A stretch of DNA of 64,000 nt from Microlunatus phosphovorus NM-1. GTDB taxonomy: Bacteria > Actinomycetota > Actinomycetes > Propionibacteriales > Propionibacteriaceae. The notes under the pieces are model-generated. The model did not search any database, was not told the origin of the DNA, and saw only the letters and a program-made list of their open reading frames with translations. The stretch is taken from contig NC_015635.1 of assembly GCF_000270245.1 (NCBI RefSeq), positions 5,332,001-5,396,000 on the forward strand. Direction: 5' to 3'. Positions 31,492-49,007 of the stretch are shown one piece after another. The position numbers and the translations under genes are program-made. Positions within the stretch are counted from its first letter, which is position 1. Every line of letters begins with the position of its first letter.

Positions 31492-33312
31492 TCAGTCGCG
31501 CGGGAGCAGTTCCTGCAGGCCACGCCACTGGTCGAGCACCAGGTGTCGGTAGGTCGCCGACCCAGCCAGCAGCTCCGGGTGCTTGCCGGTCGCGACCACC
31601 CGACCTCTTTCGAGTACGACGACCCGGTCCGCGGCGACGACGGTGGAGAGCCGGTGGGCGATCAGCAAGGTCGCCCGGCCCGCCGCACCCTCCGCCATCG
31701 ACGCCCGCAGCTCCTGCTCACTCAGCGCGTCGAGCATCGAAGTGCCCTCGTCCACGACCAGCACAGCCGGTGCCCGGACGAGGGCCCGAGCGAGCGCCAC
31801 CCGCTGCCGTTCGCCACCCGAGAGCCGGGCGCCCCGATCGCCTACCACCGTGTCCAGCCCGGACGGCAGGCGTTCGACCACGGAGTCGAGTCCGACGGTC
31901 GTCACGATGTCCGCCAGCACCTCGTCGGCCAGTTCCGGCCGGCCAAGTCTCAGATTCGCCGCCAGGGTGTCGTGCATGAGCAGCACATCCTGCGGCACGG
32001 TGACGACAGCGCGATGCAGTTCCCGCTGCGCCAAGGCGGTGATCTCGATGCCGCCAACCAGGATCGTTCCGTCGTCCGGATCGGACATCCGGGCCACCAA
32101 ATGCGCCAAAGTCGACTTGCCCGCCCCGGAGTGGCCCACAAGCGCGACAGTCTCCCCCGGCCGGATCTCCAGGTCGACCCCATCGAGCGCCGGCGTGGCC
32201 GATCCCGGGTAGCTGAACCGGACCCCACGGATCTCCAAGCCGCGGTCCGGGTCAAGGTCCCCCCGCCCCGCGGTGCCGGCATCGGGCACGGCGGCGGGCT
32301 GCTCGAGCAGATCGAAGACTCGGTCTGCGGCGGCTGTTGTCACTCCCCACACCTTGGTCGCGGCCAGCAACGTGTGCAGGGGATCGAACGTGGCAAGGGT
32401 GAGCGCGACCACGACGAGTACGGCGACCGGCCCCGGCGAGTCGCGGCCCAGCAACTGCCAGCCAACGACTGCGACGAGGGTGATGGCGGACGCGGCATAC
32501 GCCAGGCCCTGCTCGAGCGCGGCCCGGGCCGACTGCCTGGCCTGCAGTCTCGCCGTCCGATGCCCGGAACCGACCAAACGCTGCACCAGCTGGTTCCCAC
32601 CCGGCAACGCGGTGACCTCGGCCAACCCGTCGACGATGTCGACGACATCTGCGTTGAGACGAGCCAGCGCGCTCCGCAGCTCGTGCCCGTCGCGGTGGTT
32701 GGCACGGCGCAACAGCAACGGCCCGATACCTGCCACCGCGGCGCCGAACAGCACGATCACGCCGCTGACCGGATCAACGACGAACAACACGATCACGACC
32801 ATCGGACTGAGAATCGCCGCCACCACCGCATAGAGCAGCGAGTGGGCATAGAACATCTCCATCGCCTGACTGTCGTCCATGGCGGCGCTCACGTCGTCGC
32901 CGGACCGATGCCGCCCCCGCCGGCCCGGCGCCAGCCGGACGAACGCATCGAACAGCCACATCCGCACCTCCGCGAGGATCCGATAGGCGAGCTCGTGAGA
33001 CAGGTGCGCTTCGAGCCACAACGCGACCGCGCGCAGCAGCACGGCCGCAGCCGCGGCGACACCCCAGCCGACGACCTCGCGTCCCGAGCCGCCCTCGAGC
33101 GCGGTGCCGAGCAGCACCGCCCCGAGCACCAGGGTGGCCGCGCCGAGGCCCCGGGTGAAGACCCCGGCTACGGCCGACAGCACGAACGGCAGCCGATGCC
33201 GACCGAGCACGACCCACAGCCCTCGGAGTCCGCGTCGGCCGGCGACGTCGGGCGCCAACCGGCCAGGCTCCCACTGTGCGGCCCCGACTGCGCTCATCCG
33301 AAGACCACTCAT
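31492..33312 (-). CDS. ABC transporter, exporter fold (TM domain plus ATPase), subunit 2
   Basis: 606 residues: about six membrane helices in the first ~320, then a full nucleotide-binding domain with Walker A GHSGAGKST, signature LSGGERQRV and Walker B VLVVDEGTS. The Walker B Glu is kept. Its start overlaps the stop of the upstream half-transporter by 4 bases (ATGA), so the two make a heterodimer. The transmembrane part recalls CydC and exporter-fold siderophore transporters. It is divergent from the RiPP genes and shares their control region, so transport of the RiPP product, out or in, is the likely job. Confidence 0.85.
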   Translation of the reverse strand: MSGLRMSAVGAAQWEPGRLAPDVAGRRGLRGLWVVLGRHRLPFVLSAVAGVFTRGLGAATLVLGAVLLGTALEGGSGREVVGWGVAAAAAVLLRAVALWLEAHLSHELAYRILAEVRMWLFDAFVRLAPGRRGRHRSGDDVSAAMDDSQAMEMFYAHSLLYAVVAAILSPMVVIVLFVVDPVSGVIVLFGAAVAGIGPLLLRRANHRDGHELRSALARLNADVVDIVDGLAEVTALPGGNQLVQRLVGSGHRTARLQARQSARAALEQGLAYAASAITLVAVVGWQLLGRDSPGPVAVLVVVALTLATFDPLHTLLAATKVWGVTTAAADRVFDLLEQPAAVPDAGTAGRGDLDPDRGLEIRGVRFSYPGSATPALDGVDLEIRPGETVALVGHSGAGKSTLAHLVARMSDPDDGTILVGGIEITALAQRELHRAVVTVPQDVLLMHDTLAANLRLGRPELADEVLADIVTTVGLDSVVERLPSGLDTVVGDRGARLSGGERQRVALARALVRAPAVLVVDEGTSMLDALSEQELRASMAEGAAGRATLLIAHRLSTVVAADRVVVLERGRVVATGKHPELLAGSATYRHLVLDQWRGLQELLPRD

Positions 33313-35075
33313 GCGAAGACCACCTGCGCCGCAACCAGGTCGGCCAATCGACCACCCGAGCGCGCAAGTGCGGTCGGCGTGCCCACTTCGAGCAACCGTC
33401 CCGCCTCCAGCACGGCAATCCGGTCCGCCCCGGCGGCGGTCGAGAGGCGGTGGGCGATGAGCAGCGTGGTCCGCCCCTGACGCAGGTCGGCAACGGCCCC
33501 CATCACCGCGGCTTCCGTGCGGCCGTCCAGCGCCGAGGTCGCCTCGTCCAGGACCAGCAGCGGGGCACCGGAGAGGAAGGCCGTGGCGATCGCGATCCGC
33601 TGCCGTTCCCCGCCCGACAACCGGGCGCCGCGTTCGCCAAGGGGCGTGTCGATCCCATCAGGCAGACCGGCCACCACGTCGAGGGCACGAGCCCGATGCA
33701 AGACGTCGAGCAGCATGGCGTCCTCGGCGTCAGGCCGGGCGAGGAGCAGATGATCCCGGATGGTGGATCCGAGCAGGTGAACATCTTGCGAGACCACCGC
33801 GATCCGGTGCCGATGGTCGGTCAGCTCGATGGTGGCGATGTCCTGGCCATTCACCAGCACCCGGCCCTGGTCCGGGTCGTACCAGCGCTGCAGCAGGTGC
33901 ACCAGAGTCGACTTGCCCGCACCCGAGCGCCCGACCAGGGCCAGCGTCTCACCAGGGGCGATGTCGAGGTCGATCCCGACCAGTGCCGCCGCGGCCGACC
34001 CCGGGTGGGTGAAGGACACCCGCTCGAAGCGGACCGCCGGGCCGCCCAGACTCGCTGAACAGCCGCCGGACACCACCCCCGAGCCGGCAGACACCTCCGA
34101 GCCGGCCGACATCACGAGCGGCCGTGGTGCACCCAGGATCTCGTCGATGGCCTCCGCAGCGGCGCGGCCACGGAAGCCGGCACTCCAGAAGCTTTCCAAC
34201 TCCAGCAGTGGCCGGAACACCTCGGCTACGCCCAGCACCAGCACCAGGGCGGTGAGCGGCCCGATCCGGCCGCTCACCAGACCGAGACCGGCCAGCACCG
34301 TGACCACCACCGTGCCCAGCCCGACCGCCACGGTCGCGAGGCAGTACGCAATGAGCGAGATCGCCAGACCAGAACGATTCTCGCGTTTCAGTCGCTCCGT
34401 GTCCCGAGCGATCTCGGCGCGACGATCGCCGGTAGCGTCCAGCAGCCGGAGCGTCGGCATGCCGGCCAGCGCCTCCTGCATGCGGGCCGACAAGGTCGCG
34501 TACGCCTCCCAGTGGGCGCGGCTGCGATCACCGACCAGACGGGTCCACAACGGCTTGGACAGTGGCAGCAGCACCGCGGCGATGCCTGCGGCGAGCCCGG
34601 CCGGCGGATCGATCACGATGCCCAGGAGCACGAGCACCGTCGGTGCAATCGTCGCTACAGCCAGCTGCGGCAGATATGCCGAGACATAACCCTGCAGCGC
34701 TTCGACGCCATCGCCGACGGTCGCCTGCACCCGCCCGGCCCGCTGACCACGCAGCCAGCCGGGACCAAGCTCGACCAGCGCGGCAACCAGCCGCGCGCGG
34801 ACCTGTCCGAGCACCCGGGTCGACAACCGAGCGGCGGCCAGGGCACCGAGCACCCGGATGCCGAGCTCGGCAAGACCGGCAGCCGACGCCACCACGAGCA
34901 GCGGGGTCACCTCCGCGAAGGGTCGGGCCTGGATCAGGGCCCGGTCGATCGCCAGCGCCAACGACCCGAGCAGGGTCACCCGGGCGGCCACCACAGCGAC
35001 GCCGGCCAGGACCGTCCCGGCAAACGCCAGCGGTGCCGCGGCGACGTACGTCACGGCACGCGGGATCACCAGCAT
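33309..35075 (-). CDS. ABC transporter, exporter fold (CydD-like), subunit 1
   Basis: About 588 residues from ATG 35075 (AAGGG upstream). Six hydrophobic helices are followed by an ATPase with GRSGAGKST, LSGGERQRI and LLVLDEATSALD. The membrane part has CydD-like features (VGDGVEALQGYVSAYLPQL). Exporter-fold pairs can also import metal chelates, as IrtAB and YbtPQ do, so direction is open. The Fur/Zur-like box at 35113-35139 is 38-64 bases upstream of this start. First gene of a two-gene operon. Confidence 0.83.
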   Translation of the reverse strand: MLVIPRAVTYVAAAPLAFAGTVLAGVAVVAARVTLLGSLALAIDRALIQARPFAEVTPLLVVASAAGLAELGIRVLGALAAARLSTRVLGQVRARLVAALVELGPGWLRGQRAGRVQATVGDGVEALQGYVSAYLPQLAVATIAPTVLVLLGIVIDPPAGLAAGIAAVLLPLSKPLWTRLVGDRSRAHWEAYATLSARMQEALAGMPTLRLLDATGDRRAEIARDTERLKRENRSGLAISLIAYCLATVAVGLGTVVVTVLAGLGLVSGRIGPLTALVLVLGVAEVFRPLLELESFWSAGFRGRAAAEAIDEILGAPRPLVMSAGSEVSAGSGVVSGGCSASLGGPAVRFERVSFTHPGSAAAALVGIDLDIAPGETLALVGRSGAGKSTLVHLLQRWYDPDQGRVLVNGQDIATIELTDHRHRIAVVSQDVHLLGSTIRDHLLLARPDAEDAMLLDVLHRARALDVVAGLPDGIDTPLGERGARLSGGERQRIAIATAFLSGAPLLVLDEATSALDGRTEAAVMGAVADLRQGRTTLLIAHRLSTAAGADRIAVLEAGRLLEVGTPTALARSGGRLADLVAAQVVFA

Positions 35076-35112
35076 CTGGGCGCCCTTGCACAGCAGAACA
35101 TCACATCGCAAC

Positions 35113-35139
35113 TGAAAACCATTATCGATATCATTGTCA
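35113..35139. promoter_or_regulatory. Fur/Zur-type metalloregulator box (double)
   Basis: TGAAAACCATTATCG, overlapped by TGACAATGATATCG on the other strand, together make an imperfect 27-bp inverted repeat. The first unit matches 13 of 15 bases of the box at 48993-49007. It lies just upstream of the ABC pair and 219 bases before the peptide gene. The fit to the Zur/Fur TGAnAATnATTnTCA pattern is by eye. Confidence 0.7.
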
Positions 35140-35240
35140 GATGTTGTACCAGCCCAGACGGTCGATGGGCCACTCGAGTCGAGTTGTCCCCGCTCAGTCG
35201 AGCTACCCACTCAGTCGAGCACTCCCCGCCCAGCTGGGCC

Positions 35241-35274
35241 TCGGTGCAATTTCGCACTCGGTGCAATTTCGCAC
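35241..35274 (+). repeat. 17-bp direct tandem repeat in the RiPP leader region
   Basis: TCGGTGCAATTTCGCAC occurs twice head to tail, 84 bases before the peptide start. It resembles the GGTGCGAA/TTCGCACC cores of the dispersed repeats at 20.5 and 59.3-59.7 kb. It may be an activator site or a repeat scar. Confidence 0.75.
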
Positions 35275-35536: not shown

Positions 35537-36367
35537 GTGACCATCTCTCTCGAACCCGCAGCACCCGCTCAGGGCGGCCCCCTTCGGCCGATCTCCACCA
35601 CCCACCTGTTCACGGTGGGGGAAGACTTCGTCGTCTACGCCGGCGGCGAGGACTTCCTGACCCTCGAGCTCGGCGCCGCAGCAGCTGCCGAACTGGTCAG
35701 CGTGCTGCGCGGTGAAACGGATCTGAGCAGCTGCACTGCCCTCGACCAGGCGATCGCCGCCGAGGTGACGGCCGAGCTCGCCGCCGAGGGCCTACTCGCC
35801 GAGCCGGGCGCCTTCTCCTTCTCGACCCCGCCTCACGCGCACGCCGTCATTCTCGGTGACGGCGTCGTCGCCGATGCGGTCCGCACCCTGCTGCCCGGCG
35901 CCGCGACAAGCCTCACCGACGACGTCACTGACCTCGTCATCGCCTGCGCAGGCTGGCTCCCCGATGCCGCCTGGCTGCGGCTGGACGCCGAGCTCGCCGC
36001 CCGGGGCATCGCCTGGCACCGCTGCTGGGGCGACGGCACCGCCCTGCACATCGGCCCGTTGACCGTGCCCGGCGAAGGCCCGGGCTACGACGACGTCCGC
36101 CGCCGCCAGCTCGCCGCAACGGACTCGCCTGACCTGCTGCTCGCTCTCTGGAGCCATTGGGACCGCACCGCCCCGGACTATCCCTCGCCCGATCCCGGCA
36201 GTGCGGCGATCGCAGCTGGACTGCTCGCAGCCGATGCACTCGACCTCCTCGCCGGTCGGGTGCCGCTGGGGTCGACCGAGCAGCGCGAGCTCGACCTGCG
36301 CACCCGCGACATCATCAGCCACCCCGTCCTGCCCGTGCCCGGCTCGGCCTGGCTGCCGACCCGGTGA
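35537..36367 (+). CDS. RRE / E1-like (cyclodehydratase C-type) leader-binding protein
   Basis: 276 residues. Residues ~20-95 look like a RiPP recognition element (winged-helix: LFTVGEDFVVYAGGEDFLTLELG, then helices ending AAEGLLAEPG). The rest resembles the degenerate ThiF/E1-like half of TOMM C proteins (HAVILGDGVVADAVRTLLPG as the nucleotide-like strand), without the four Cys of a zinc site. In azoline biosynthesis such proteins bind the leader and activate the YcaO enzyme. GTG start with GAGG upstream. It overlaps YcaO 1 by 4 bases (GTGA). Family call from motifs and context. Confidence 0.72.
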   Translation: MTISLEPAAPAQGGPLRPISTTHLFTVGEDFVVYAGGEDFLTLELGAAAAAELVSVLRGETDLSSCTALDQAIAAEVTAELAAEGLLAEPGAFSFSTPPHAHAVILGDGVVADAVRTLLPGAATSLTDDVTDLVIACAGWLPDAAWLRLDAELAARGIAWHRCWGDGTALHIGPLTVPGEGPGYDDVRRRQLAATDSPDLLLALWSHWDRTAPDYPSPDPGSAAIAAGLLAADALDLLAGRVPLGSTEQRELDLRTRDIISHPVLPVPGSAWLPTR

Positions 36368-37773
36368 CCGAGATGGATCTGGACGGGCTACCCGCCGCCC
36401 ACCGTCGACTCGTCGACGAGCAGCTCGGGCTGGTGCGGCGACTCGTCGACTACCCCATGCCCCCGTGGTTCCCGCAGGGACTCATCACCAGGGGCGCCGA
36501 CGTCGCCAACTCGCTCGACCCCGTGCACTGGCACGCGGACCGGGCGGCGATCGGAGCGACGTTCGGCGATCCGATCGGAGCCGCGGTCGCGGCGATCGGT
36601 GAGGCCGTCGAACGCTACTGCGGCAATCACGTGCCGACGAACCTGGTACGCGGCAGCTACGCCGAGCTGCTCCGGCGCGGTCACCGCGTCCTCGACCCGA
36701 CGAGCATCGTGCTCTTCTCCGCCGAGCAGTATCACACCGCTGGCTTCCCGTTCGTGCCCTTCACCCGTGACCTCGACGTGCTGTGGGCGCCGGGAGAGGA
36801 CCTCCACGACGGGAGCCCATGCCTGCTGCCGGCCTCGCTCGTCTACTGCAACTTCCACTGGAGTCCGGATCGCACGACCGAGCCGCGCACCAACGGCCTG
36901 GTCTACGCCGGCATCGCCGCCGGGCCGGACCGAACGTTCGCCGAGACCTCCGCCCTGGAGGAGCTGATCGAACGCGACGCCACGGCGCTGTGGTGGCACA
37001 GCGGCGCCTCGCCTCGCGGCCTGGACGTGAGCGGTGACCCACGGCTGACCGCCGCACTCGCGGTCCGGGACGACGCCAATCGAGTCGACTATCACTTCTT
37101 CGAGATCCCCACCGCCTTCGACACCCAGGTCGTCGGCTGTCTGCTGGAGGACCGGGAACTGCAGATCGTCGGTGCCGGATTCGCCTGCCGGTCCGATCCC
37201 GGTGAGGCCGCGCTCAAGGCCGCCGCCGAGGCCATCGGCACCTGGTTCTATTCGACCGGAATCCTCGATCCCGATGGCGCCATCTGGCAGGCGATCGCTA
37301 CCGGCGGTCTGGACCCGCGGGCGTACAAGCCCTATCGCGCCGACCGGTGCTACCTCGACGACTTCCGCGATGACTATCGCGACATCATCGACCTCGGCGC
37401 CCAGATGCAGTTCTATCTCGACCCGCGCGCTCGATCGCTGGTCACCCGGATCACCGACCCAGACGTACGGATCCCGCTGGCCGCACCGCCGACCAGAACC
37501 AACCGCGAGCCAGCCGTACGAAGGGCTCGACTGCTCGACGGCCTCGCCGAGCAAGGCATGCGGGCGTACGCCGTCGATGTCACCACGCCCGACATCGCCC
37601 GGGTCGGTCTGCACGTCAGTCGCGTCCTCACCCCGGATCTGACCTCCAACGCTCCCGCCTCCGCACCGTACTTCGGCGGTGACCGCATCCGCACCGAGCC
37701 GCACCGGCTCGGGCTGGTGCCGGCGCCACTGCGCGAGCAGGACCTCGTCCGCGCCCCGATCCCGCACGTGTGA
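36364..37773 (+). CDS. YcaO cyclodehydratase 1 (azoline type)
   Basis: 469 residues, GTG start overlapping the preceding stop. The YcaO ATP-binding motifs are GEAVERYCG (residue ~80) and SALEELIERDATALWW (~200), followed by AALKAAAEAIG. YcaO enzymes phosphorylate a peptide backbone amide, letting a Ser, Thr or Cys side chain close to an azoline. The protein ends RAPIPHV, a variant of the Pro-rich C-terminus that azoline-forming YcaO proteins need. It is paralogous to the next gene; the two may form a heteromer or act on different sites. Confidence 0.87.
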   Translation: MTEMDLDGLPAAHRRLVDEQLGLVRRLVDYPMPPWFPQGLITRGADVANSLDPVHWHADRAAIGATFGDPIGAAVAAIGEAVERYCGNHVPTNLVRGSYAELLRRGHRVLDPTSIVLFSAEQYHTAGFPFVPFTRDLDVLWAPGEDLHDGSPCLLPASLVYCNFHWSPDRTTEPRTNGLVYAGIAAGPDRTFAETSALEELIERDATALWWHSGASPRGLDVSGDPRLTAALAVRDDANRVDYHFFEIPTAFDTQVVGCLLEDRELQIVGAGFACRSDPGEAALKAAAEAIGTWFYSTGILDPDGAIWQAIATGGLDPRAYKPYRADRCYLDDFRDDYRDIIDLGAQMQFYLDPRARSLVTRITDPDVRIPLAAPPTRTNREPAVRRARLLDGLAEQGMRAYAVDVTTPDIARVGLHVSRVLTPDLTSNAPASAPYFGGDRIRTEPHRLGLVPAPLREQDLVRAPIPHV

Positions 37774-37780: not shown

Positions 37781-39064
37781 ATGAGCACTGACACCAACTC
37801 GCTGACCCGGCTGGTCGACTCTCGGCTGGGCCTGGTGACCGCCATCGACGAGCCGGCGCGGCACCCGAGCCTGCCGGATGCGTTGTCGATCGCCTCCGCG
37901 CGGCTGGCCGGCCTGCCTCCGGGAGCGGCGAGCCCCGGCGGAGCCGCCTGGTGGTCCCGGACGACGGCGCGCACGGCCGCCCTCGGTGAGGCCGTGGAAC
38001 GCTATGCCGCCACCCACCGGGTGATCATTCGCCGCGCGAGTGCCGATGAGCTGACCGCCGAGGGCGTGGCGCATCTTGACCCCGTCGCCCTCGCCCCCCA
38101 CTCCGCCGGCCAGTACGCCGCCCCGGGCTTCCCGTTCACCGCGCCCGACCGCGGTCGGACGATCTCCTGGTGCCGAGCCGTGGACGTGCCGGGCGCCGAG
38201 GTGCTGGTGCCGGCCAGTCGGGTCGGCCTCGAGATCATCGGTGGTGAGCCGATTCCGCACCTGCCGATCAATGCCGGGATCGCGGCCGGGTCGGATCTGG
38301 CCAGAGCCGGAGCCGCGGCCCTGGAGGAGGCGCTCGAGCGGCACGCCGTCGCCACCTCGTGGATCGGCGGCTTGAGCTGGCCGCGTCTGCCCGTCCCCGA
38401 CTGGCTCCTCGCGGTGCTCGGCGGCCGCGCAGCGTGCTACGACATAGCGGTCCACGCCGTCCCGGATCCCTTCGGTCTGCCCGTCACCGCGGTCCTGCTG
38501 ACCCAGAAGGACGGTCCGGTCCTCGGGATGGGCACCGCCCTGCGACCCCGGCGTGCCGACGCGATCGCCAAGGCTGCCGCCGAGGCCGTCGTCTCGTGCC
38601 AGGCAGCCCACCAGCTCGACGATCCCGAGACGCTCGCCGCCTGGGCCGGCGGACCGCTCCGGGCCTGGCGTGCCGATCGTCACTATCGCGACTCGTATCG
38701 CGCCGATCTGCACGACCTGGTCGATGTCTTCTGCCACGTGCAGCTGTATCTGGATCCGCGCGCCCGCGCCGATGTGCTTGACCGGCTGGCGTCCGGACGA
38801 CCGGCGACCGGCTGGCCGGAGGCGGCTGATGTGCCCGATCGCCGTGTCTATGTCGAGCGCGTGGTCGCGGCCGGGCGCCTCCCCTACCTGGTCGACCTCA
38901 CCACGCCGGATCTCGCCCGTGTCGGATTCGCGGCGGCGGCCAGCGTCGTCCCCGGGCTCCGCTGCACCGCGCCGGCCGCCTTCCCACATCTCGGCGGTGC
39001 CTGGCCGCAGCCGCTTTCCACACCCGAGTCCGAGCTGCTCCCGCCGCCCCTACCGCATGCCTGA
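37781..39064 (+). CDS. YcaO cyclodehydratase 2 (azoline type)
   Basis: 427 residues from ATG 37781, with GAGGTGA upstream; GTG 37775 is an in-frame alternative. It carries LGEAVERYAATH, AALEEALERHAVATSW and AIAKAAAEAVVS, the paired Glu motifs of the YcaO ATP site, and ends LPPPLPHA, again a Pro-rich tail like PxPxP. The N-terminal region is shorter than in YcaO 1. It has 30-40% apparent similarity to its neighbour by eye, consistent with old duplication. The gene lies 7 bases after YcaO 1. Confidence 0.87.
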   Translation: MSTDTNSLTRLVDSRLGLVTAIDEPARHPSLPDALSIASARLAGLPPGAASPGGAAWWSRTTARTAALGEAVERYAATHRVIIRRASADELTAEGVAHLDPVALAPHSAGQYAAPGFPFTAPDRGRTISWCRAVDVPGAEVLVPASRVGLEIIGGEPIPHLPINAGIAAGSDLARAGAAALEEALERHAVATSWIGGLSWPRLPVPDWLLAVLGGRAACYDIAVHAVPDPFGLPVTAVLLTQKDGPVLGMGTALRPRRADAIAKAAAEAVVSCQAAHQLDDPETLAAWAGGPLRAWRADRHYRDSYRADLHDLVDVFCHVQLYLDPRARADVLDRLASGRPATGWPEAADVPDRRVYVERVVAAGRLPYLVDLTTPDLARVGFAAAASVVPGLRCTAPAAFPHLGGAWPQPLSTPESELLPPPLPHA

Positions 39065-39119
39065 TCCCGCCACATGCCTGACCCTGCCCATGCCTGAAGA
39101 AGCTGCCCGGAGGACCCCG

Positions 39120-40430: not shown

Positions 40431-41716
40431 GCGTCGGGTCCGGTACCGAGCTGCGGGTCATCCACGACCCGCAGCAGATCGTCGTGTTCCTCGGGCCGTC
40501 GCTCCCCGCGGACGCCGCCCGTCGGCTGCTCGATGCCGACTTCCGGCCGCCCGCCGCTCAGGGTGACGTGTATCGGGCCGCGCTCGGCGGCGCCGCGGTG
40601 ATCGTGCTCATCGATGGCCGGTTCGGCAGCGTCCCCGCGGTCTGGCACAAGGAGGTGCTGGCTGCGCTGGCCCAAGGCGTCCATGTGCTCGGGGCCGCCA
40701 GCATGGGTGCGCTGCGCGCCGCCGAGCTCGCCGACTTCGGGATGGAGGGCCACGGTGTGATCTTCGGCCGATATCACCGCGGCGAACTGACCGCTGACGA
40801 CGCCGTCGCGGTGGCGCACGCGGGGCCGGAGAGCGGACATCGCCGCCTGTCGGAGGCTCTGGTCGACATCCAGGCCACCCTTGACGCGGCGCACGCGGCC
40901 GGCATCGTGGATGTCGAGACGGCGGCGGCACTGGCCGCGACCGCTGAACGGCTCCACTACCCTCGCCGGACCTGGGGCGAACTGCTGGAGCAGTGTCCGC
41001 AGACCGCACTGGCGGACTGGCTGCCGACCGGCCGGGTGGAGCAGAAGCGCCGCGACGCCGAAGAGGTGCTGCGCACCGTCGCCGACCGCCTCGTCGCCGG
41101 GATCGCGCCCCGCCCGGTCGACCTGGCGGTCGAGGACAGCCAGGTGTGGGCTCGGGCGCGCACCGCCGCTGCCGACACGACCTCCTCGGATCACTCCGAC
41201 GTGCCGTTCGAGCTGATCGCCGACGAGCTTCGCCTGACCCCTGGGCGACCAGCCGCGAGCCGGTACGCCGCCGCCTACCGCGAGGCGCTGCTCCGACACG
41301 CCTTGCTGGAACTCGCCGGCGCCCTGCAACTGGGCCGACCCGATCTCACCGCAAAGACGGCCGAGGAACGCGCCGAGGCGGAGCAGGAGGTCTTGCGCCG
41401 AGTCGAGGCGCAGGTCTACGACGGTGTCCTCGCCCGGCTGCCCGGTGTGCTGGCCGCCGCCGACGATCTGACTCCTGCCGTCCGATGCGCTCGTCGGATC
41501 CGGGATGTGCTTGCCGAGCTCGGCGGCGTGGTGCCCCGCGCCACGGAAATCGGCACCAGTGACGAGGCGCTGCTCGCCGCCCATGCCGGCATCGCGTCCG
41601 ACGGCAACCATCGTCGGCGCTCTGCTCGGGCAGCCGGGTTCGCCTCGGAGGACGACCTGCGGCGCGCCCTGGTCCTCCGCCACCTCGCAGGTCTCAAGCC
41701 CGAGAACGCCTCGTGA
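40427..41716 (+). CDS. tfuA: TfuA-like protein
   Basis: 429 residues. The N-terminal TfuA domain is clear: IVVFLGPSLPADAARRLL, RPPAAQGDVYRAAL, VIVLIDGRFGSVPAVWHKEVLAAL and VLGAASMGALRAAELADFGM. TfuA is named after trifolitoxin production and cooperates with YcaO in thioamide formation, probably in sulfur delivery. The C-terminal ~200 residues are Ala/Arg-rich helices, longer than in minimal TfuA proteins; their role is unknown. ATG overlaps the YcaO 3 stop by 4 bases, suggesting translational coupling. Confidence 0.9.
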   Translation: MSVGSGTELRVIHDPQQIVVFLGPSLPADAARRLLDADFRPPAAQGDVYRAALGGAAVIVLIDGRFGSVPAVWHKEVLAALAQGVHVLGAASMGALRAAELADFGMEGHGVIFGRYHRGELTADDAVAVAHAGPESGHRRLSEALVDIQATLDAAHAAGIVDVETAAALAATAERLHYPRRTWGELLEQCPQTALADWLPTGRVEQKRRDAEEVLRTVADRLVAGIAPRPVDLAVEDSQVWARARTAAADTTSSDHSDVPFELIADELRLTPGRPAASRYAAAYREALLRHALLELAGALQLGRPDLTAKTAEERAEAEQEVLRRVEAQVYDGVLARLPGVLAAADDLTPAVRCARRIRDVLAELGGVVPRATEIGTSDEALLAAHAGIASDGNHRRRSARAAGFASEDDLRRALVLRHLAGLKPENAS

Positions 41717-41765: not shown

Positions 41766-43904
41766 ATGAGCGAACTGCAGGACCTGAACCTCACCTACCC
41801 CGTGGCTCGGCAAGATGCCGTGGTCGAGCGGCTGCACGGCGTCGACGTGCCCGATCCGTACCGCTGGCTCGAAGACCTCGGTGATCCCGACACCCTGCCC
41901 TGGGTCCGGGCTCAAGGTGCTCTCGCCCGCACGGTCCTGGATGCCTCCCCGTGGAAGGCCCACTTCAGCGAGCGGCTCCGTCAGGTGTGGAGCCAACGCA
42001 CTTGCCACACCGCATTGATGCAAGGGGGCAAGTACTTCTACTTCTTCAACGACGGCAGCCAGGAACAAGACGGGCTGTACGTGATGGACGCGCCCGACGG
42101 TGAGCCGCGGCTGCTGCTCGACCCGTCGGCCGAACACAGTGAGGCGGGCAGCGCCACGATCTCCTATGCCACCGCGAGCCCCGACGGGTCGCTGCTGGCC
42201 TACAGCCTCAGCTTCGGCGGCTCGGACTGGCAGCAGTGGCGGGTGCGGGAGGTCGCGACCGGCGAGGATCTGCCGGAGCGGCTGGAAGGCAGCAAATTCT
42301 CGGCCGCCGGCTGGAACGCCGACTCGACCGGCTTCTACTACACCTGCTTCGCTGAACGGGACAGCGCAGCGGAGCCCGACGCCGAGACCAACTCCGAAGC
42401 CGCCGCCAAGACCAGTGCTGAGTGGGAACCTGATCTCGACCCGGTCGTCGCGTTCCACCGGGTCGGCACCGACCAGGCCGAGGACGAGCTCGTCTACGAA
42501 GACCCAGCACACCCCGAGCAGGGCATCACCGTACTCACCTCCGAGGACGGCAGCCACCTGATCCTCTTTCTCTGGCGGGGTGATGCGGCGACCACCGGCA
42601 TCATCGTCAAAGACATCACCGACGCAGCCTCGGCGACAGACCCGGGGTTCGTGGAACTGCTGCCCGACTTCGACGCGTCCTATTCCTACGTCGCGGGCGA
42701 GGGGCCGATCATGTGGTTCCAGACCGATCGGGATGCCCCGATGGGCCGCATCATCCGCACCGATGCCCGGCGTCCCGGCGAGATCGTCGAGGTGGTGGCC
42801 GAGGGCTGCCACGCGATCCAGGGCGCGGGTCTGATCGGCGGCAAGCTCTATGTCGTCCAGCTGGTCGACGCGTGCAGCCGGATCCACGTACACGACCCGT
42901 ACGACGGCCGGTATCTCGGCGAGGTGTCGCTGCCCGGCGCAGGCACGGTCGAGGGACTGCGCAGCGATCCCGCCGGCACCGAGTGCTTCTACTCCTTCAC
43001 CGATTTCTTGCGCCCGGCCACCGTTTATCGGCTGGACACCCGCGACGACACCAGCACCGTCTTCTTCGAGCCCGAGCTCACCTTCGACCCGGACGACTTC
43101 GTCGTCGAGCAGGTCCGCTTCACCGCCGACGACGGTGTCGAGGTGCCGGTTTGGCTCGGCCGGCACCGCGATACGCCTCGCGATGGCGCCCGACCGACCT
43201 TCCTCGCCGCGTACGGCGGGTTCGGGTTTGCCATCACGCCGTCGTTCACCCCCGGGCCCCTGGCCTGGATGGAGCTGGGCGGCATCTACGCGCTGGCCAA
43301 CGTGCGGGGCGGCGGTGAGTTCGGCGAGGCGTGGCACGAGGCCGGCTCGGGCCGGCGCAAGGTGCGCGCCGTCGACGATCTCATCGGCGCCGCCGAGTGG
43401 TTGGCCGAGTCTGGCTGGACCGAGCCGGAGCGGCTAGCGGTCGGCGGGATGAGCAACGGTGGTCTGCTGACCACCGCGCTGCTCACCCGCCGGCCGGACG
43501 TGTGCGCCGGGGTGCTGGCGGTCAATGGGGTGATGGACCTGGTGCGCTTCGACCGGTTCACCATCGGCTGGTCCTGGCGGTTCGAGTACGGCGACCCCGG
43601 CGGCCCCGACGATTTCGCCGCGTTGCTGGCTCTGTCGCCGTTGCACAACGTCACTGACGAGACCGCCTATCCGGCTGCCCTGATCTGCACGGCGGTCCGT
43701 GATGACCGGGTGGTGCCCGCGCACAGCTTCAAATTCGCTGCGGCCCTGCAGCGGGCACAGGCGACGAGCGCCCCAGCGCTGCTGCGCGTCGACGAGGAGG
43801 CTGGTCATGGCCGTGATGCCCGGCTGGATGCCGGGCTGTCCGATCTGAGCGACCGCTGGGCGTTCTCGGCGGAGGTGGTCGGGCTGACGCGGACGACGCC
43901 GTGA
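41766..43904 (+). CDS. Prolyl oligopeptidase (S9A) family peptidase
   Basis: 712 residues with no signal peptide. An N-terminal beta-propeller (to ~430) is followed by an alpha/beta-hydrolase: Ser in GGMSNGGLL (~562), Asp in VRDDRVV (~646) and His in EEAGHGRD (~681). POP enzymes cut short peptides after Pro. The candidate precursor has Pro at 'GAP' and 'SAP', so leader removal or macrocyclisation inside the cell is plausible. Located 49 bases after tfuA and overlapping the MATE gene by 4 bases, it is part of the operon. A stretch rich in Glu/Ala (near residue 205-220) is an unusual insertion. Confidence 0.9.
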   Translation: MSELQDLNLTYPVARQDAVVERLHGVDVPDPYRWLEDLGDPDTLPWVRAQGALARTVLDASPWKAHFSERLRQVWSQRTCHTALMQGGKYFYFFNDGSQEQDGLYVMDAPDGEPRLLLDPSAEHSEAGSATISYATASPDGSLLAYSLSFGGSDWQQWRVREVATGEDLPERLEGSKFSAAGWNADSTGFYYTCFAERDSAAEPDAETNSEAAAKTSAEWEPDLDPVVAFHRVGTDQAEDELVYEDPAHPEQGITVLTSEDGSHLILFLWRGDAATTGIIVKDITDAASATDPGFVELLPDFDASYSYVAGEGPIMWFQTDRDAPMGRIIRTDARRPGEIVEVVAEGCHAIQGAGLIGGKLYVVQLVDACSRIHVHDPYDGRYLGEVSLPGAGTVEGLRSDPAGTECFYSFTDFLRPATVYRLDTRDDTSTVFFEPELTFDPDDFVVEQVRFTADDGVEVPVWLGRHRDTPRDGARPTFLAAYGGFGFAITPSFTPGPLAWMELGGIYALANVRGGGEFGEAWHEAGSGRRKVRAVDDLIGAAEWLAESGWTEPERLAVGGMSNGGLLTTALLTRRPDVCAGVLAVNGVMDLVRFDRFTIGWSWRFEYGDPGGPDDFAALLALSPLHNVTDETAYPAALICTAVRDDRVVPAHSFKFAAALQRAQATSAPALLRVDEEAGHGRDARLDAGLSDLSDRWAFSAEVVGLTRTTP

Positions 43905-45349
43905 CCGGCGCGGCGGACAACGCCGAGAGTGCCCCGGCCGCTGCCACGGCGCCGGCAGCACCGGCGGCGCTGCCGAGGCGGGTTCGTGCGGCGTGGATCG
44001 TCACGTATCCGCTGATCGTCGCGAGCGCGGCCAGCACCACACTGGCGGTGGTCGACACGCTGCTGCTGGGTCGGTTCGGCACCGCGGCCCTCGCCACGAT
44101 CGCGTTGGCGACACCGGTCTTCGTCTTCGGCTCGGCTCTGGTGGTGCCGTGGGGAACCGCCGTGCAGGTCCTCATCGCCCGGCTCCACGGGGCCGAGGAC
44201 ACCGCCAGGATCGGTCGGCTGCTCGGGATCGGTCTGCGTGTCTGCCTCGCGGCCGCCCTACTGCCGACCCTGACCATCATCGCGGCCGCGCCGTGGATTC
44301 TGCACGTGCTGGCCGGAGGAGAGGTGCCGGTCGAGGCGAGCACCGTCGTCCGGATCCTTGCCTGCACCCTGCCGTTGACCGCGGTGACCGCGCACTACCG
44401 AGGGGTCTTCGGCGGCCTGGGGAGGACTCGCATCACCATGCAAGTCGCCCTGGGGGTCAACATCGTCAACATCCCGTTGGACGTGCTCCTGGTCTATGGA
44501 CTCGGTCTGGGCGCCGTCGGCTCCGCCCTCGGCACGCTCGCCGCCGTCGCCAGCGGCGCCGGCTACATTGCCTGGCTCGCACGCCGTGAGCTGCGCCCCG
44601 ACTATCCGGCACCGCCCATCCACCGATCCCGTTGGCGCCGTGCGGCGGGGGGCGATGAGAAGGCAGAAGGACCTGCGTCCCGGGCCCTTGCGGGGGAGGT
44701 ATGGAAGATCGGCTGGCCCGACACCACCTTCGCGGTGATCGTCTACGGCGCCGACGTGCTGCTGACCGCCATCGTCGCGACCATCGGCACGGCTGACCTC
44801 GCGGGCTACCGTTTGATGGTCACCACCGTCACGGTGCTGTGGGTGGTCGTGTTCTCCTGCAGCAGCGGCATCTCGATCCTCGCCGGGCAGCGACTCGGCG
44901 CCGACGACGAGCCTGGTGCTCGCGCGGCGCTCCGAGCCGGCGCGGTGCTGATGGCAGGCCTGTGCGTGCTCGTCGTGCTGCTGCCGCTGCTTGTTCCGTA
45001 CTGGTACTTCGGCCTGTTCTCCACCGACCGCGGCGTCGTGGACGCCGCCACCAGCGCGGTCTGGGTGCTGCTGCTGCTCGTGCCCGCCATGGTCGTCGCC
45101 ATGAGTTTGGCGGGGCTGCTCCGCGCCGGTGGCGACACCAAGGGGATCATGTACGCGGGTGGCCTGAGCCAGTTCGTGCTCGCGCTGCCGGTGGCCTGGT
45201 TCGCGGTGCAGGTGCTGGGCTGGGGCATCGCCGGTGCCTATCTCGGCTTCGCCACCGGGATCCTCGGCCGCGCTGTCTTCACCGTGCTGCGCTGGCGTCA
45301 GGGTCGGTGGCGTACCGCGCTGTCGAGCGCTGCGATCGGCAGCAAATAG
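43901..45349 (+). CDS. MATE-family exporter
   Basis: 482 residues with 12 hydrophobic helices. Typical MATE features are VDTLLLGRFGTAALATIALATPVF in the first bundle, YRGVFGGLGRTRITM in the middle and RAGGDTKGIMYAGGLSQ in the second bundle. It would export the mature RiPP using an ion gradient. The GTG start overlaps the peptidase stop (GTGA), so it closes the biosynthetic operon. Its 3' end overlaps the convergent regulator gene by 52 bases. Confidence 0.92.
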   Translation: MTGAADNAESAPAAATAPAAPAALPRRVRAAWIVTYPLIVASAASTTLAVVDTLLLGRFGTAALATIALATPVFVFGSALVVPWGTAVQVLIARLHGAEDTARIGRLLGIGLRVCLAAALLPTLTIIAAAPWILHVLAGGEVPVEASTVVRILACTLPLTAVTAHYRGVFGGLGRTRITMQVALGVNIVNIPLDVLLVYGLGLGAVGSALGTLAAVASGAGYIAWLARRELRPDYPAPPIHRSRWRRAAGGDEKAEGPASRALAGEVWKIGWPDTTFAVIVYGADVLLTAIVATIGTADLAGYRLMVTTVTVLWVVVFSCSSGISILAGQRLGADDEPGARAALRAGAVLMAGLCVLVVLLPLLVPYWYFGLFSTDRGVVDAATSAVWVLLLLVPAMVVAMSLAGLLRAGGDTKGIMYAGGLSQFVLALPVAWFAVQVLGWGIAGAYLGFATGILGRAVFTVLRWRQGRWRTALSSAAIGSK

Positions 45350-45903
45350 CGCTGAGCCGGTCCGCTGCCGGCAATCGTCAGCTGACCCGCGCGCCGCAGT
45401 CGCTGCAGCGCGCGGGTCACTGTCGGTCGGGTGCGGCCGGTGGCAGCAGCCAACAGCCCGTGAGTGAGGGCCACGTCGATCCGCACCCACGACCCCGCCA
45501 CCACCCCGAACCGCGCGGCGAGCAATGCCAGCAGCTCGAACAGCTGGTCCTCGGTGTGGGAGTGGGCCATCGCCGCTGCCCACGCCTCCCGCCAATGCAG
45601 CTGGTCACGCAGAGCGCCGGCGACCTCGGCAGAGGCGAGCGCCTGCTCCCAGACCAGTTCCTCGACCAACACGTCAGTCAGCGCGTGGTGCCGGATGTGA
45701 CACAGGTCCGTGCCGTGGCCGGTGACCAGATGCCCGGTGCCGGCGAGATCAAGCAACCAGGCGTCTCCGCTCGGGTGCTCGGCCCAGGTGGCGAGGACCC
45801 CCTGGCGGACCAGGGCGATGCTCCGCTCCGCCAGGGCCAGGTCCTCGCCGGCCTCACGGCCGACCAAATGCTCGCGTCGATCAAGCACCGTCGACCATCG
45901 CAA
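45298..45903 (-). CDS. Crp/Fnr-like transcriptional regulator
   Basis: 201 residues. The C-terminus is a Crp-type helix-turn-helix (LLAAATGRTRPTVTRALQRLRRAGQLTI). The N-terminal ~120 residues have a beta-roll-like pattern but no recognisable phosphate-binding cassette for cAMP. It may sense something else and regulate the adjacent import operon or the RiPP genes. TTG 45903 is used; GTG 45888 is an alternative, and neither has a good ribosome site. It is convergent with the MATE gene and follows the import operon by 25 bases. Confidence 0.7.
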   Translation of the reverse strand: MRWSTVLDRREHLVGREAGEDLALAERSIALVRQGVLATWAEHPSGDAWLLDLAGTGHLVTGHGTDLCHIRHHALTDVLVEELVWEQALASAEVAGALRDQLHWREAWAAAMAHSHTEDQLFELLALLAARFGVVAGSWVRIDVALTHGLLAAATGRTRPTVTRALQRLRRAGQLTIAGSGPAQRYLLPIAALDSAVRHRP

Positions 45904-45927: not shown

Positions 45928-47037
45928 TCAGAACGCGTCGGGATGGAGCTGCTCGGCCACGTACCGCACCGCCGCCGGCGTGGTCATCGAGCCGGGCAGC
46001 GACGCCGAGGAGCTGTAGGCGATCAGCTTGTCGTTCCGCACCGCCGGTGTGCTGGGGAAGGTCTTGCGCAGGGTCGCGCGGACCTGGTCTGCCTCCTTCT
46101 CGCTGCCGGCGCTGAAGACGAACGCCTCGGGTTGGGTGGCAGCCACGACCTCGGCCGAGAGATTGGCGAAGAGCATCCCCTTGAACTGTGGGTCTCCAGG
46201 GGCGAAGACGTTCACGCCACCGGCAGCGCGGACCAGATCGTTCTCGGTCGAGCCGACCAGGCTCTGGATGTCGCTGCCCCAGATGTACACCTCGGCCACC
46301 TTCACCGGTTTGGTGCCTTGGAGCGCGTCGGCGACCTCGTCGAGCTGGCCCGTGTAGTCGCTCGCCAACTCCTTGGCGCGGTCCTGCACTCCGAAGATCT
46401 GGCCGAGGGAGTCGAGGTCGACCAGCGTGTCCTTGACCGAACGGTGGATCCGCCGCTCCGGGCAGCCGCCGGCGGCAAGATACGGCGCGATGTCGGCTGC
46501 CTCGAGGTCCTTCATCGTCGCGAACCCCTGCTCCCCGTCGAATTCATAGGTCGTCGGAGCCAGCACGAGGTCGGGCGACTGCGAGACGGTGACCTCCTTG
46601 GCCGGGACACCACTCTTGGCGATCACCGGGATGTTCTCGCTCCCTTCGGGTTCGGCGCTGCCCGCCAGGCCGTCGACGACCCCCAGCTGGGCCTGCCCGA
46701 CGACCCGGTCGACCAAGCCCAGATCGACCACGACATCGGTCTGCGGCTGCGCCAGACTCACGACGCGCTTCGGCGCGTGGTCGAAGGTCAGGGTGCGGTC
46801 ACAGTTGCTGATCGTCACGGGGTAGGCGCCCCCAGCGGGCTTGGCCGAGGATGCGCTCGACGGTGCTGATCCGCCGGCCTCGGGCGTACTGCTGCCGCAG
46901 GCCGCGGTCAGCGCGAGCAGCACGGAAGCGACCAATACCGGACCGCCGCGGCGGAACGGGCGAAACGCTCTCGGCCGTGCGGCAGCCGCGGACTCAGCGG
47001 CGGAAACCGACGTTGTGGACATGGACGTTGTGGACAT
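45928..47037 (-). CDS. Metallophore-type ABC substrate-binding lipoprotein
   Basis: About 369 residues with a signal ending in lipobox ALTAAC (near residue 48) after a long basic lead (RAFRPFRRGG). The mature part is a TroA/FepB-fold binding protein: RTLTFDHAPKRVVSLAQPQTDVVVDLGL, PDLVLAPTTYEF and an RAAGGVNVFAP segment. It would capture a metal chelate for the FecCD permease. ATG 47037 has GAGGAGG upstream; the first codons contain a 15-bp tandem duplication (MSTTS twice) that also offers an in-frame ATG 15 bases later. Last gene of the import operon, 71 bases after the ATPase. Confidence 0.88.
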   Translation of the reverse strand: MSTTSMSTTSVSAAESAAAARPRAFRPFRRGGPVLVASVLLALTAACGSSTPEAGGSAPSSASSAKPAGGAYPVTISNCDRTLTFDHAPKRVVSLAQPQTDVVVDLGLVDRVVGQAQLGVVDGLAGSAEPEGSENIPVIAKSGVPAKEVTVSQSPDLVLAPTTYEFDGEQGFATMKDLEAADIAPYLAAGGCPERRIHRSVKDTLVDLDSLGQIFGVQDRAKELASDYTGQLDEVADALQGTKPVKVAEVYIWGSDIQSLVGSTENDLVRAAGGVNVFAPGDPQFKGMLFANLSAEVVAATQPEAFVFSAGSEKEADQVRATLRKTFPSTPAVRNDKLIAYSSSASLPGSMTTPAAVRYVAEQLHPDAF

Positions 47038-47108
47038 GGATGAGTGCCTCCTCGGGCATGAATGGGCGATCGGATGGGAACGGAGACGAGCGCTCGGCAA
47101 AGCGGTGG

Positions 47109-47876
47109 TCACTGGAGCCGATCCAGTGCGAGCAGGGTGCGACCGGTGACGGGATGGAGCACCCGGTGGCAGTCGAGCCGGAAGACCTCACGCAGCAGCT
47201 TGGGCGTCAGCACGTGTTCGGGTGCCCCGGCGGCAACCACCTTGCCGGCCGAAAGCACGGTGACCAGGTCGCAGTAGGTCTGCGCGAGGTTGAGGTCGTG
47301 CAGCGCGACCACCACCGTGATGCCGAGCTCACGTACCAGCGCCAGCAGGTCGAGCTGGTGGCAGACATCGAGGTGGTTGGTCGGCTCGTCGAGCACGAGC
47401 ACGGGCGTGGCCTGGGTGAGCGCTCGGGCCAGCAGCACCCGCTGCCGCTCCCCACCCGACAAGCTCGGGGTCGAGCGATCCGCCAGGTGCGTCGCGTCGA
47501 CCCTGGCTAGCGCGGAGTAGGCGCGATCGAGGTCTTCCGAGCTGTCCCCGGCGAACGGCCGCTTGTGCGGCGTACGTCCCATCAGCACGGTGTCCAGCAC
47601 GCTGAACTCGACATCGACACCCGGGTCCTGGGCGACCACCGCGACCCGGGTCGCCGACCCGCGGGCCGACAGCGACCAGACATCGTCGTCACCGAGACGC
47701 ACCACGCCCACCTGAGGTCGCAGCGACCGGTAGACGGTGCGCAACAACGTGGACTTGCCGCTGCCGTTGGGCCCGACCAGGCCGACCACCGCGCCCGCCG
47801 GCACGACGAGTTCGACGTCACGGAGCAGCTCGGCTGCCCCGATTCGGACGGTGACTCCCTCGACCTGCACCCTCAT
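47109..47876 (-). CDS. FecE/BtuD-type ABC ATPase
   Basis: 255 residues, standard for importer ATPases of metal chelates. Walker A GPNGSGKST (~38), the Q-loop at VAQDPGVD, signature SLSGGERQR, Walker B PVLVLDEPTNHLD and the switch region VVVALHDLN are all intact. It powers the permease it overlaps by 4 bases. Family substrates are ferric siderophores, haem or cobalamin; here the linked RiPP is the likely cargo. Confidence 0.93.
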   Translation of the reverse strand: MRVQVEGVTVRIGAAELLRDVELVVPAGAVVGLVGPNGSGKSTLLRTVYRSLRPQVGVVRLGDDDVWSLSARGSATRVAVVAQDPGVDVEFSVLDTVLMGRTPHKRPFAGDSSEDLDRAYSALARVDATHLADRSTPSLSGGERQRVLLARALTQATPVLVLDEPTNHLDVCHQLDLLALVRELGITVVVALHDLNLAQTYCDLVTVLSAGKVVAAGAPEHVLTPKLLREVFRLDCHRVLHPVTGRTLLALDRLQ

Positions 47877-48988
47877 CGGCTGTCCACCCCGCCGCGCCGA
47901 GCGGCCCCGTCGCGACGCATCAGCCAGAGGAAGAACGGCGCCCCGACCAGCGCAGTGACCACGCCGATCGGCAACTCCAGCGGAGCCGCGACGGTCCGGG
48001 CGACCGTGTCGGCCAGCACAAGGAACACCGCACCCCCGGCGACGGCGGTCGGCAGCAAGCGCCGGTGCCCCGCGCCGACGACCATCCGGGTGATGTGCGG
48101 CACAACCAGACCGACGAAGCCGATGCCGCCGCTCACCGCGACGGCCACGCCGGTCAGCACCGAGGTGGTGAGCAGCATCTCGCCGCGAACCCGGTCCGCG
48201 GACACGCCGAGCGCGACGGCCGTCTCGTCGCCGGTCATCAAGGCGTCAAGCGCGCGAGCACGCCCGAGCACATGCAGGGCACCCAGCAGCAGGGCAATGG
48301 CGGGCAGCAAGAGGTCAGTGCGGTCCGCCTCTGCCACGCTGCCGAGCAGGAAATAGAGGATGCCGAAGACCTTGTTGGCGTCGCTGGTGAGCACCAGATA
48401 GCTGGTGCCGGCACTGAACAGATAGGACAGCGCGACCCCGGCCAACACCAGCCGCACCGGGGTAAGCCGTCCCTGTCGACGGGCCAACACGAACAACGCC
48501 GTCGTGGCGAGAGCGGAGCCTGCCGCGGCACCGCCTGCCAACGGCACGCCTGCTACCGCCGTGCCCGAGGCCAGCACCAGCGCGACGGCTCCGAGACCCG
48601 CACCGGACGAGACCCCGAGCACCCACGGGTCCGCGAGCGGGTTGCGCACGACCGCCTGCAGCACGGCACCGACCAGGGCGAGCAGGCCACCGACCAGGGC
48701 GGCGAGCAGCACCCGCGGGACGCGGTAGTCCCAGACGATCACTTCCTCGACGGTGGTCCAGCCGCCCTGGCCCCAGAAGCCGAGGCGATGACCGATGACG
48801 CCGATCGTGGTTCCCGGCGCCACCGCCACCGCACCGACTCCGATGCTCACCACAATTGCTGTCGCCAGCAGCCCGATCAGCACCGGCAGCGCCGCCAAGG
48901 CGGCGGCCGATCTCTGCCGCCGCCCGTTCCCGGCTGTCCGGGCACCCGCCGGCGCGAACGATGGCGAACTCAACCCGACCCCCGGCAT
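47873..48988 (-). CDS. FecCD-family permease
   Basis: 371 residues, about ten hydrophobic helices. Family motifs: DYRVPRVLLAALVGGLLALVGAVLQAVVRNPLADPWVLGVSSGAGLGA, shown in part as RVPRVLLAALVGG and NPLADPWVLGVSSGAG, and the late GFVGLVVPHITRMVVG. A single permease gene implies a homodimer. The ATG is only 4 bases from the Fur/Zur-type box, with GATAAT in the -10 position, so the mRNA is probably leaderless and repression by a metal-loaded regulator would block RNA polymerase directly. First gene of the permease-ATPase-binding-protein operon. Confidence 0.93.
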   Translation of the reverse strand: MPGVGLSSPSFAPAGARTAGNGRRQRSAAALAALPVLIGLLATAIVVSIGVGAVAVAPGTTIGVIGHRLGFWGQGGWTTVEEVIVWDYRVPRVLLAALVGGLLALVGAVLQAVVRNPLADPWVLGVSSGAGLGAVALVLASGTAVAGVPLAGGAAAGSALATTALFVLARRQGRLTPVRLVLAGVALSYLFSAGTSYLVLTSDANKVFGILYFLLGSVAEADRTDLLLPAIALLLGALHVLGRARALDALMTGDETAVALGVSADRVRGEMLLTTSVLTGVAVAVSGGIGFVGLVVPHITRMVVGAGHRRLLPTAVAGGAVFLVLADTVARTVAAPLELPIGVVTALVGAPFFLWLMRRDGAARRGGVDSR

Positions 48989-48992
48989 TTAA

Positions 48993-49007
48993 TGAAAATG
49001 ATTATCG
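48993..49007. promoter_or_regulatory. Fur/Zur-type metalloregulator box of the import operon
   Basis: TGAAAATGATTATCG fits the TGAnAAT-N-ATTnTCA pattern at all but the last base. It overlaps the apparent -10 of the leftward permease promoter. It differs clearly from the IdeR-type box at 13727-13745. Confidence 0.75.

Follow-up and report, generated by a model that had tools for sequence, protein, structure and literature searches.

Gene content of the cluster

The 64,000-nucleotide stretch of Microlunatus phosphovorus NM-1 analysed here (NC_015635.1, positions 5,332,001 to 5,396,000; called the window and numbered from its first nucleotide) carries a candidate zinc-scavenging system built around a ribosomally synthesised and post-translationally modified peptide (RiPP). 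A plus-strand operon running from the precursor gene to a MATE transporter gene, with intergenic gaps of -4 to 71 bp, lies between a minus-strand pair of ATP-binding cassette (ABC) half-transporters (31492-35075) and a minus-strand FecCD-FecE-FecB importer unit (48988-45928). All the parts named in a preliminary description of this DNA, namely the peptide gene, an RRE/E1-like protein (RRE, RiPP recognition element), three YcaO proteins, TfuA, a prolyl oligopeptidase (POP), the MATE transporter, the ABC pair and the FecCD importer, were located by open reading frame (ORF) calls, Pfam and NCBIfam profiles and a structure model (Table 1). To these we add two matches to the box of the zinc regulator Zur and a Crp-type helix-turn-helix (HTH) gene; with all operon genes assigned, none is left over for a dehydrogenase. 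A count over the 5.68-Mb genome gave no YcaO genes besides the three of this locus, and FecCD genes over the cut-off occur at four places in the genome.

Table 1 Features of the cluster, in window coordinates
Feature	Position	Strand	Evidence and remarks
abcA	31492..33312	-	ABC half-transporter, CydC-like; ABC_membrane + ABC_tran; closest NCBIfam TIGR02868, below cut-off; by sequence a likely exporter subunit (cf. amiT1/T2)
abcB	33309..35075	-	ABC half-transporter, CydD-like; below CydC/CydD cut-offs
Zur-box match TGAAAACCATTATCG	35113..35127	.	38 bp 5' of abcB, 245 bp 5' of precursor
Precursor peptide, 35 aa	35358..35465	+	ORF MDKKLLRRVSTRTRTGAPVLHSGNHATASAPFAWE; AAAGGA in front; predicted core VLHSGNHATASAP
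RRE/E1-like partner protein (AmiB-like), 276 aa	35537..36367	+	Weak TIGR03882 match; structure model
ycaO1, azoline-type YcaO	36364..37773	+	PF02624; over SagD cut-off
ycaO2, second SagD-like YcaO	37781..39064 (corrected)	+	PF02624; under SagD cut-off
ycaO3, TfuA partner	39090..40430 (corrected)	+	PF02624; likely thioamidation with TfuA
tfuA	40427..41716 (corrected)	+	PF07812; adjoins ycaO3
POP, S9	41766..43904	+	PF02897 + PF00326
MATE transporter	43901..45349	+	PF01554; 57% in N. exhalans; likely exporter
Crp-type HTH protein	45298..45903	-	PF13545 1.7e-8; 3' of fecB, same strand
fecB, chelate-binding (periplasmic-binding) protein	45928..47112	-	PF01497; 51% in N. exhalans
fecE, importer ATPase	47109..47876	-	PF00005; 60% in N. 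exhalans
fecCD, importer permease	47873..48988	-	PF01032 1.9e-86; 65% in N. exhalans
Zur-box match TGAAAATGATTATCG	48993..49007	.	4 bp 5' of fecCD start

Zur-box matches in the genome

Zur-box matches were found at both divergent promoters of the cluster, at 35113 and 48993, a count reached by none of 100 shuffles of the window. The window and genome counts used a pattern of our own, set before the published actinobacterial motifs, TGANNATSATNNTCA (172 chromatin immunoprecipitation (ChIP) sites) and TGANAANNNTTNTCA (17 znuA genes; both PMC5472717), which replaced it for the family counts given below. With the znuA-derived motif and at most one mismatch, the 64-kb window holds only these two sites. 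The 48993 site has one mismatch to each published motif; the 35113 site, the start of an imperfect 27-bp palindrome reaching 35139, has one mismatch to the znuA-derived motif and two to the ChIP motif. The start of abcB is most likely the ATG at 35075, the GTG of the longest ORF (35210) being one that would place the match within the gene.

Across the whole genome our pattern, at up to two mismatches, was found at seven places and its reverse at none. Besides the two in the cluster, one lies before znuA, where genes for an ABC ATPase, for a permease of the ABC-3 type and for a Fur-family protein follow; one between the genes for ribosomal proteins L31 (without Cys) and L28; one before the gene of a pyridine-nucleotide-disulphide oxidoreductase, beyond which, after about 3 kb, comes a cobW gene of the COG0523 type; and one inside a coding frame. 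A further one, TGACAATCATTGTCA (G000:C1:1957805, position 7805 of L160), stands between genes for an ABC transporter ATPase and a methyltransferase and possibly marks another zinc-starvation transporter. Textbook Zur targets are of this kind: znu genes, Cys-less ribosomal proteins and COG0523 proteins (PMC6103462). At the level of sequence the genome therefore carries both the promoter motif of a Zur regulon and a Zur-type gene by the znu genes.

Between the 35113 site and the precursor we also observed a tandem 17-bp direct repeat, CTCGGTGCAATTTCGCA, at 35240-35273, with exact TGCAATTTCGCA copies at 35245 and 35262. It is possibly an operator, perhaps for the Crp-type gene; Nocardiopsis exhalans, the relative described below, has a single match to it at up to two mismatches, within the operon.

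Relatives of the cluster

Ten relatives of the YcaO1 protein were found at 56-78% identity, one of them from N. exhalans (G672) and another, at 58%, from Micromonospora craniellae, which the locus comparison leaves out. In the N. exhalans cluster the genes from precursor to MATE are arranged as in the window, and FecB, FecE and FecCD genes at 51-65% identity come next; its precursor is 86% identical to that of the window, the two genes differing at 13 codons, 8 of them synonymously. Directly beside it N. exhalans carries a cluster of the type that makes the RiPP streptamidine (L163/L164, at about 29-36 kb in the joined stretch), whose precursor has two repeats and which has a Zur-box match of its own; on the other side lies a second FecBCD unit. 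An alignment-based search of genome contigs gave 215 ycaO1 relatives, of which the best 80 were kept, so that more distant relatives fall outside the comparison; the single-protein scan found none.

The preliminary description had expected homologous loci to keep the peptide, three YcaOs, TfuA and FecCD together, and would have been contradicted by an importer that was never linked. Six genomes carry the full set, as expected: that of the window, N. exhalans, Thermocatellispora tengchongensis (L017, the same as L167), G624, G625 and G628. A FecCD gene is present in 52 of the 61 loci with a recognised precursor, against 8 of the 19 without one. Homologues of abcA at 43-46% identity occur in L167, L169, L170 and L177.

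Of 197 genomes from the bacterial family of the organism, 11, its own included, gave a relative of ycaO1 at E 1e-20, with identities of 32-44% in the others. When a profile of window-type precursors was run over 394 genomes of the class, six matches had E below 1e-10, all six within 5 kb of a ycaO1 match, and five were weaker, with E between 8e-4 and 9e-3; the genomes that had supplied rows of the profile include at least G000, G548 and G571. Two plasmid records were also found: one carries a streptamidine cluster, and in the stretch of the other neither a precursor nor an importer is annotated.

Zur-box matches across the family

A regular expression recovered precursors from 52 of the 80 loci and none from 28; together with those of the window and N. 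exhalans (two) they give 49 distinct sequences. The znuA-derived motif, with at most one mismatch, occurs within 400 bp upstream of 36 of these 49, against 28 of 980 random windows drawn from these loci (2.9%; they may overlap real boxes) and 2 of 980 shuffles; for ORFs longer than 68 aa, up to 150 nt of the ORF was added to the upstream region. The ChIP motif at two mismatches gave a similar picture, with 35 of 49 precursors against 7.2% of random windows.

An independent set, picked with the NCBIfam streptamidine model NF040714 and extended by one plasmid copy, had a box at one mismatch in 12 of 16 cases, all 12 at 85-102 bp before the start, and in 16 of 16 at two mismatches; at one mismatch none of 232 random windows matched. 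This search covered the same 394 genomes, 18 of which had a match, 17 over the cut-off. Of the 21 loci entered, L201, L209 and L210 had no motif by regular expression, L214 (with a box) and L216 (without) were duplicates, and the set leaves out four second-repeat loci (L211, L212, L213 and L215). The plasmid amiA gene, annotated as a streptamidine family RiPP, encodes the published core HLSATH and has a box without mismatches at 94 bp. Contigs C1 and C5 of G277 (L208, L214 and L216) hold three copies of one streptamidine-type precursor, two with a box and one without.

In N. exhalans boxes lie at the precursor, at the adjacent streptamidine-type precursor and at one of the two fecCD genes, and in L169 and L170 a match is also found just 5' of abcB. 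Zinc-related neighbours were seen as bare occurrences, without a background rate: the G624 relative lies next to znuA, a Fur-family gene and a gene for cation efflux; tblastn detected genes like znuA, zur or both in the stretches of two Frankia loci and one Arthrobacter locus; and COG0523-type neighbours at 27-34% identity in L004, L015, L036, L043 and L077 are suggestive only.

The precursor and its predicted cleavage

The precursor of the window has the core pattern L-H-S-x-N-H, and its class reads [VL]-H-[ST]-x-N-H-[AS]...A-W. In 16 aligned members of the class, H-[S/T]-x-N-H shows no variation at its two His and its Asn, most of these rows having been selected partly by that motif. When the small ORF that precedes the RRE gene was taken irrespective of any motif, the loci with ycaO1 relatives mostly gave one broad kind of peptide. 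Besides the window class, the forms distinguished are motif A, that of streptamidine (HLSATH-SNALVENPF), and motif B (GTNALVHNPF), each with an NCBIfam model, a bridging form (VHSNTHNHALVHNPFAW) and a His-rich form (LAPNSHNHGHTTTVFAW). Precursors of L191, L079 and L164 pass NF040714 and that of L014 passes NF040715; those of the window, L008 and L017 match neither model, even at E 10, so that the H-[S/T]-x-N-H peptides constitute a new class missed by the streptamidine models. The His-rich class (LAPNSHNHGHTTTVFAW, LAPHNHHTSLAPSFTWKK and similar) was seen 5' of related YcaOs in L046, L061, L062, L063, L067, L071, L075 and L182, and none of the three members tested had a box directly before the precursor.

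POP is present in the three of 20 loci that have a Pro three to five residues before the core and in none of the other 17, two of which carry a Pro six residues before it; this link comprises three positive loci, for one of which (L010) we chose the precursor start ourselves. Besides the window, POP matches among the compared loci were seen only in N. exhalans and in L010, a contig of a metagenome-assembled genome, and other S9-type peptidases occur in streptamidine-type clusters. Both here and in N. exhalans the core ends in a second Pro (AP/VLHSGNHATASAP/FAWE, slashes marking the predicted cuts), and POP likely frees it by cutting after Pro18 and Pro31. POPB likewise cuts at both prolines for amatoxins. 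Relatives of the MATE transporter, at 34-36% identity, are also found in L025, L027, L032 and L033.

Modification proteins and neighbouring genes

The RRE/E1-like protein has one weak family match, to TIGR03882, below the cut-off. Its AlphaFold2 model (mean predicted local distance difference test score 78, weak in the N-terminal part) matched in Foldseek cyanobactin heterocyclases including TruD, as well as McbB and MccB, at a best E of 1.8e-10 and template-modelling scores of 0.4-0.5, the match being piecewise since the root-mean-square deviation is about 22 Å. In a tree of 151 YcaOs, built with a quick search, ycaO1 groups with YcaOs from clusters of motifs A and B (74-row clade; Shimodaira-Hasegawa-like approximate likelihood-ratio test (SH-aLRT) 94, marginally short of 95), whereas ycaO2 belongs to a clade of 21 rows (SH-aLRT 98) and ycaO3 to one of 7 rows (SH-aLRT 100).

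Just left of the cluster lie a gene for a TOTE conflict-system primase-helicase protein (28244-30721; PF22548, ResIII) and, adjoining it, a Fic-domain gene (30799-31470; PF02661).

A proposed zinc-scavenging pathway and its alternatives

Because a His-bearing peptide, modifying enzymes, a chelate-type importer and a Zur motif shared with zinc-uptake genes occur together, we predict from the sequence that the locus makes, secretes and re-imports a His-bearing, YcaO-modified peptide that scavenges zinc under zinc starvation, a reading to which we give a probability of about 0.58. From the Zur-box matches here and across the family, induction of these clusters by zinc starvation is probable, and a zincophore is the most likely kind of product. 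The preliminary description had proposed a metal role in general; the link to metal is supported, and it is narrowed to zinc by the Zur boxes here and in the family, the lack of a DtxR/IdeR box and the linkage of the importer.

In the proposed pathway, abcBA, the precursor operon and fecCD-E-B would be released from repression by Zur when zinc runs short. The RRE/E1-like protein would then hold the leader so that the core reaches YcaO1 and YcaO2, which would cyclise the Ser/Thr of L-H-S-x-N-H to an azoline or amidine; we propose that the rings stay reduced, because no dehydrogenase gene is apparent in the operon. YcaO3-TfuA would add a backbone thioamide and POP would cut after both prolines, giving a 13-residue core. 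Once exported by the MATE transporter, the ABC pair or both, the core would bind Zn(II) through the two His around the modified Ser, and FecB-FecCD-FecE would import the zinc complex.

Several observations weigh against this pathway. The 35113 site is the weaker of the two in the window and fails a strict two-motif rule, which also gives no site in L017, L173 and L177. At one mismatch the box is absent before 13 of the 49 precursors (five of motif B, two of the window class and all six of the NHALV and NHGH types), although two NHGH loci have a match near ABC/fecCD genes instead. The N. exhalans FecBECD unit most like that of the window (51/60/65%) has no match, which is found at the other unit, and the N. 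exhalans stretch has no close homologue of the ABC pair. FecCD is absent from 9 of the 61 precursor loci, three of which (L024, L070 and L071) lie on stretches longer than 20 kb. A core that begins after a cut at Pro18 does not agree with the streptamidine rule for amidine formation, in which the N-terminal residues read x-x-Ser. Weightiest of all, purified streptamidine bound no Fe(II), Co, Cu, Mg, Mn, Ni or Zn, and an amiD mutant behaved like the wild type under metal starvation (PMC8442711). The negative binding possibly reflects a shortened or shunt product, and redundant zinc uptake may have masked a phenotype.

The lack of metal binding by streptamidine speaks for a rival, clearly less likely explanation, in which zinc starvation induces the cluster while the product is an antibiotic or signal and FecBCD serves immunity, signal uptake or another chelate. 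The streptamidine authors suggested signalling or development, and the two kinds of exporter here, MATE and the ABC pair, would suit a secreted inhibitor. Against this, deletion of the FecBCDE-type genes abolished streptamidine production, and streptamidine had no antibacterial or antifungal activity (PMC8442711). The frequent presence of a FecCD-type importer beside recognised precursors (52 of 61) also speaks against this explanation.

That the product is instead a metallophore for iron, copper, nickel or cobalt, with Zur-box matches that are incidental or read by another Fur-family protein, seems improbable to us. The genome does have three Fur-family genes, FecCD-type systems import chelates of several metals, and azolines and thioamides bind copper in methanobactin; yet the same motif stands at znuA, at the L31/L28 genes and before most precursors of the family. 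Iron regulation in particular was rejected, as no DtxR/IdeR-like box lies near, the best match at the promoters having 9 mismatches in 19 positions. Least likely of all, with only a few chances in a hundred, the RiPP cluster and the FecBCD unit would be unrelated neighbours and the peptide would have no metal role. FecCD is found near 8 of the 19 loci without a recognised precursor and is missing from nine with one; nevertheless, 52 of 61 is far above the chance expected from four FecCD places per genome, and in the window both units have Zur-box matches.

On the zinc-scavenging reading, Zur control would explain the linked FecBCD importers, and zinc binding would make this a ribosomally made zincophore system. 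Among the matches listed for the open-access literature, none links YcaO or RiPPs to Zur or zinc starvation, and none describes a ribosomally made zincophore. Tentatively, and at somewhat less than even odds, we extend the idea to the streptamidine superfamily as a whole: its members would be widespread Zur-controlled ribosomal zincophores, and the locus a new branch whose product, freed by POP, would offer Zn(II) a site of N and S donors (two His, azolines or an amidine, and a thioamide).

Comparison with known systems

The streptamidine (ami) clusters, described from Streptomyces albidoflavus J1074 as a family from more than 230 species whose role was given as unknown, comprise a precursor, an RRE/E1-like protein, one or two YcaOs, a hydrolase, an ABC pair and FecBCDE, with the core published as HLSATH (PMC8442711). 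The view in the preliminary description that no described RiPP has this gene composition thus held only in part: these clusters are similar, while the set of three YcaOs, TfuA and POP was not found described in the sources as available to us. Common to both are a small precursor whose gene directly precedes that for an AmiB-type RRE/E1-like protein, the YcaO clade, the FecBCDE-type importer and the ABC pair; our analysis adds the Zur-box matches upstream of precursors in members of the family. The window differs in having two azoline-type YcaOs and a YcaO-TfuA pair, plus POP and MATE, and in a precursor outside both NCBIfam models. Judged by sequence, the locus is a divergent new variant within the streptamidine superfamily, because ycaO1 lies in the clade of motifs A and B and the precursor lies outside both models.

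The streptamidine dehydrogenase is essential, yet the product bears no oxidation (PMC8442711). The AmiC-like S15 hydrolase of plasmid pNit has no homologue in window positions 30001-55000, where POP may stand in for it, and has relatives in L008, L009, L013, L017, L169, L079 and L014; the assumed AmiE of pNit, used as query, gave no matches, not even in the streptamidine-type L079. Metal import had already been proposed by the streptamidine authors, whose paper, in the text available, does not name Zur (PMC8442711). Their idea lacked support from their own binding tests, and the Zur boxes make the role directly testable.

Motif-B clusters (Frankia, Rhodococcus, Clavibacter; PMC8442711; NF040715) share the tandem pair of YcaOs, the RRE/E1-like protein and FecBCD, but their precursor, GTNALVHNPF, has no preceding His pair, and no TfuA or POP match was found in motif-B loci. 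With the YcaO-TfuA RiPPs (thioviridamides, thiovarsolins, thiopeptins and std; PMC6511847, PMC8120280, PMC13174530) the locus shares the adjacent ycaO-tfuA genes, and PMC8120280 lists some that have additional ycaO genes and encode a prolyl endopeptidase; unlike in the window, FecCD is not mentioned, and no metal role stated, in the available text of these three papers.

Bufferins, as far as the source at hand describes them, are also metal-binding ribosomal peptides, differing in their metal, copper, and in having no YcaO. Methanobactin is a copper-binding ribosomal peptide as well, made by MNIO-type enzymes without YcaO. Ethylenediamine disuccinate (EDDS) and pseudopaline are not known to be ribosomally made. 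A parallel in regulation is with the Zur-controlled zincophores coelibactin, EDDS and pseudopaline (PMC5472717, PMC6103462), whose biosynthesis genes stand under Zur, as box matches suggest for the window; unlike the window peptide, coelibactin is not a ribosomal product.

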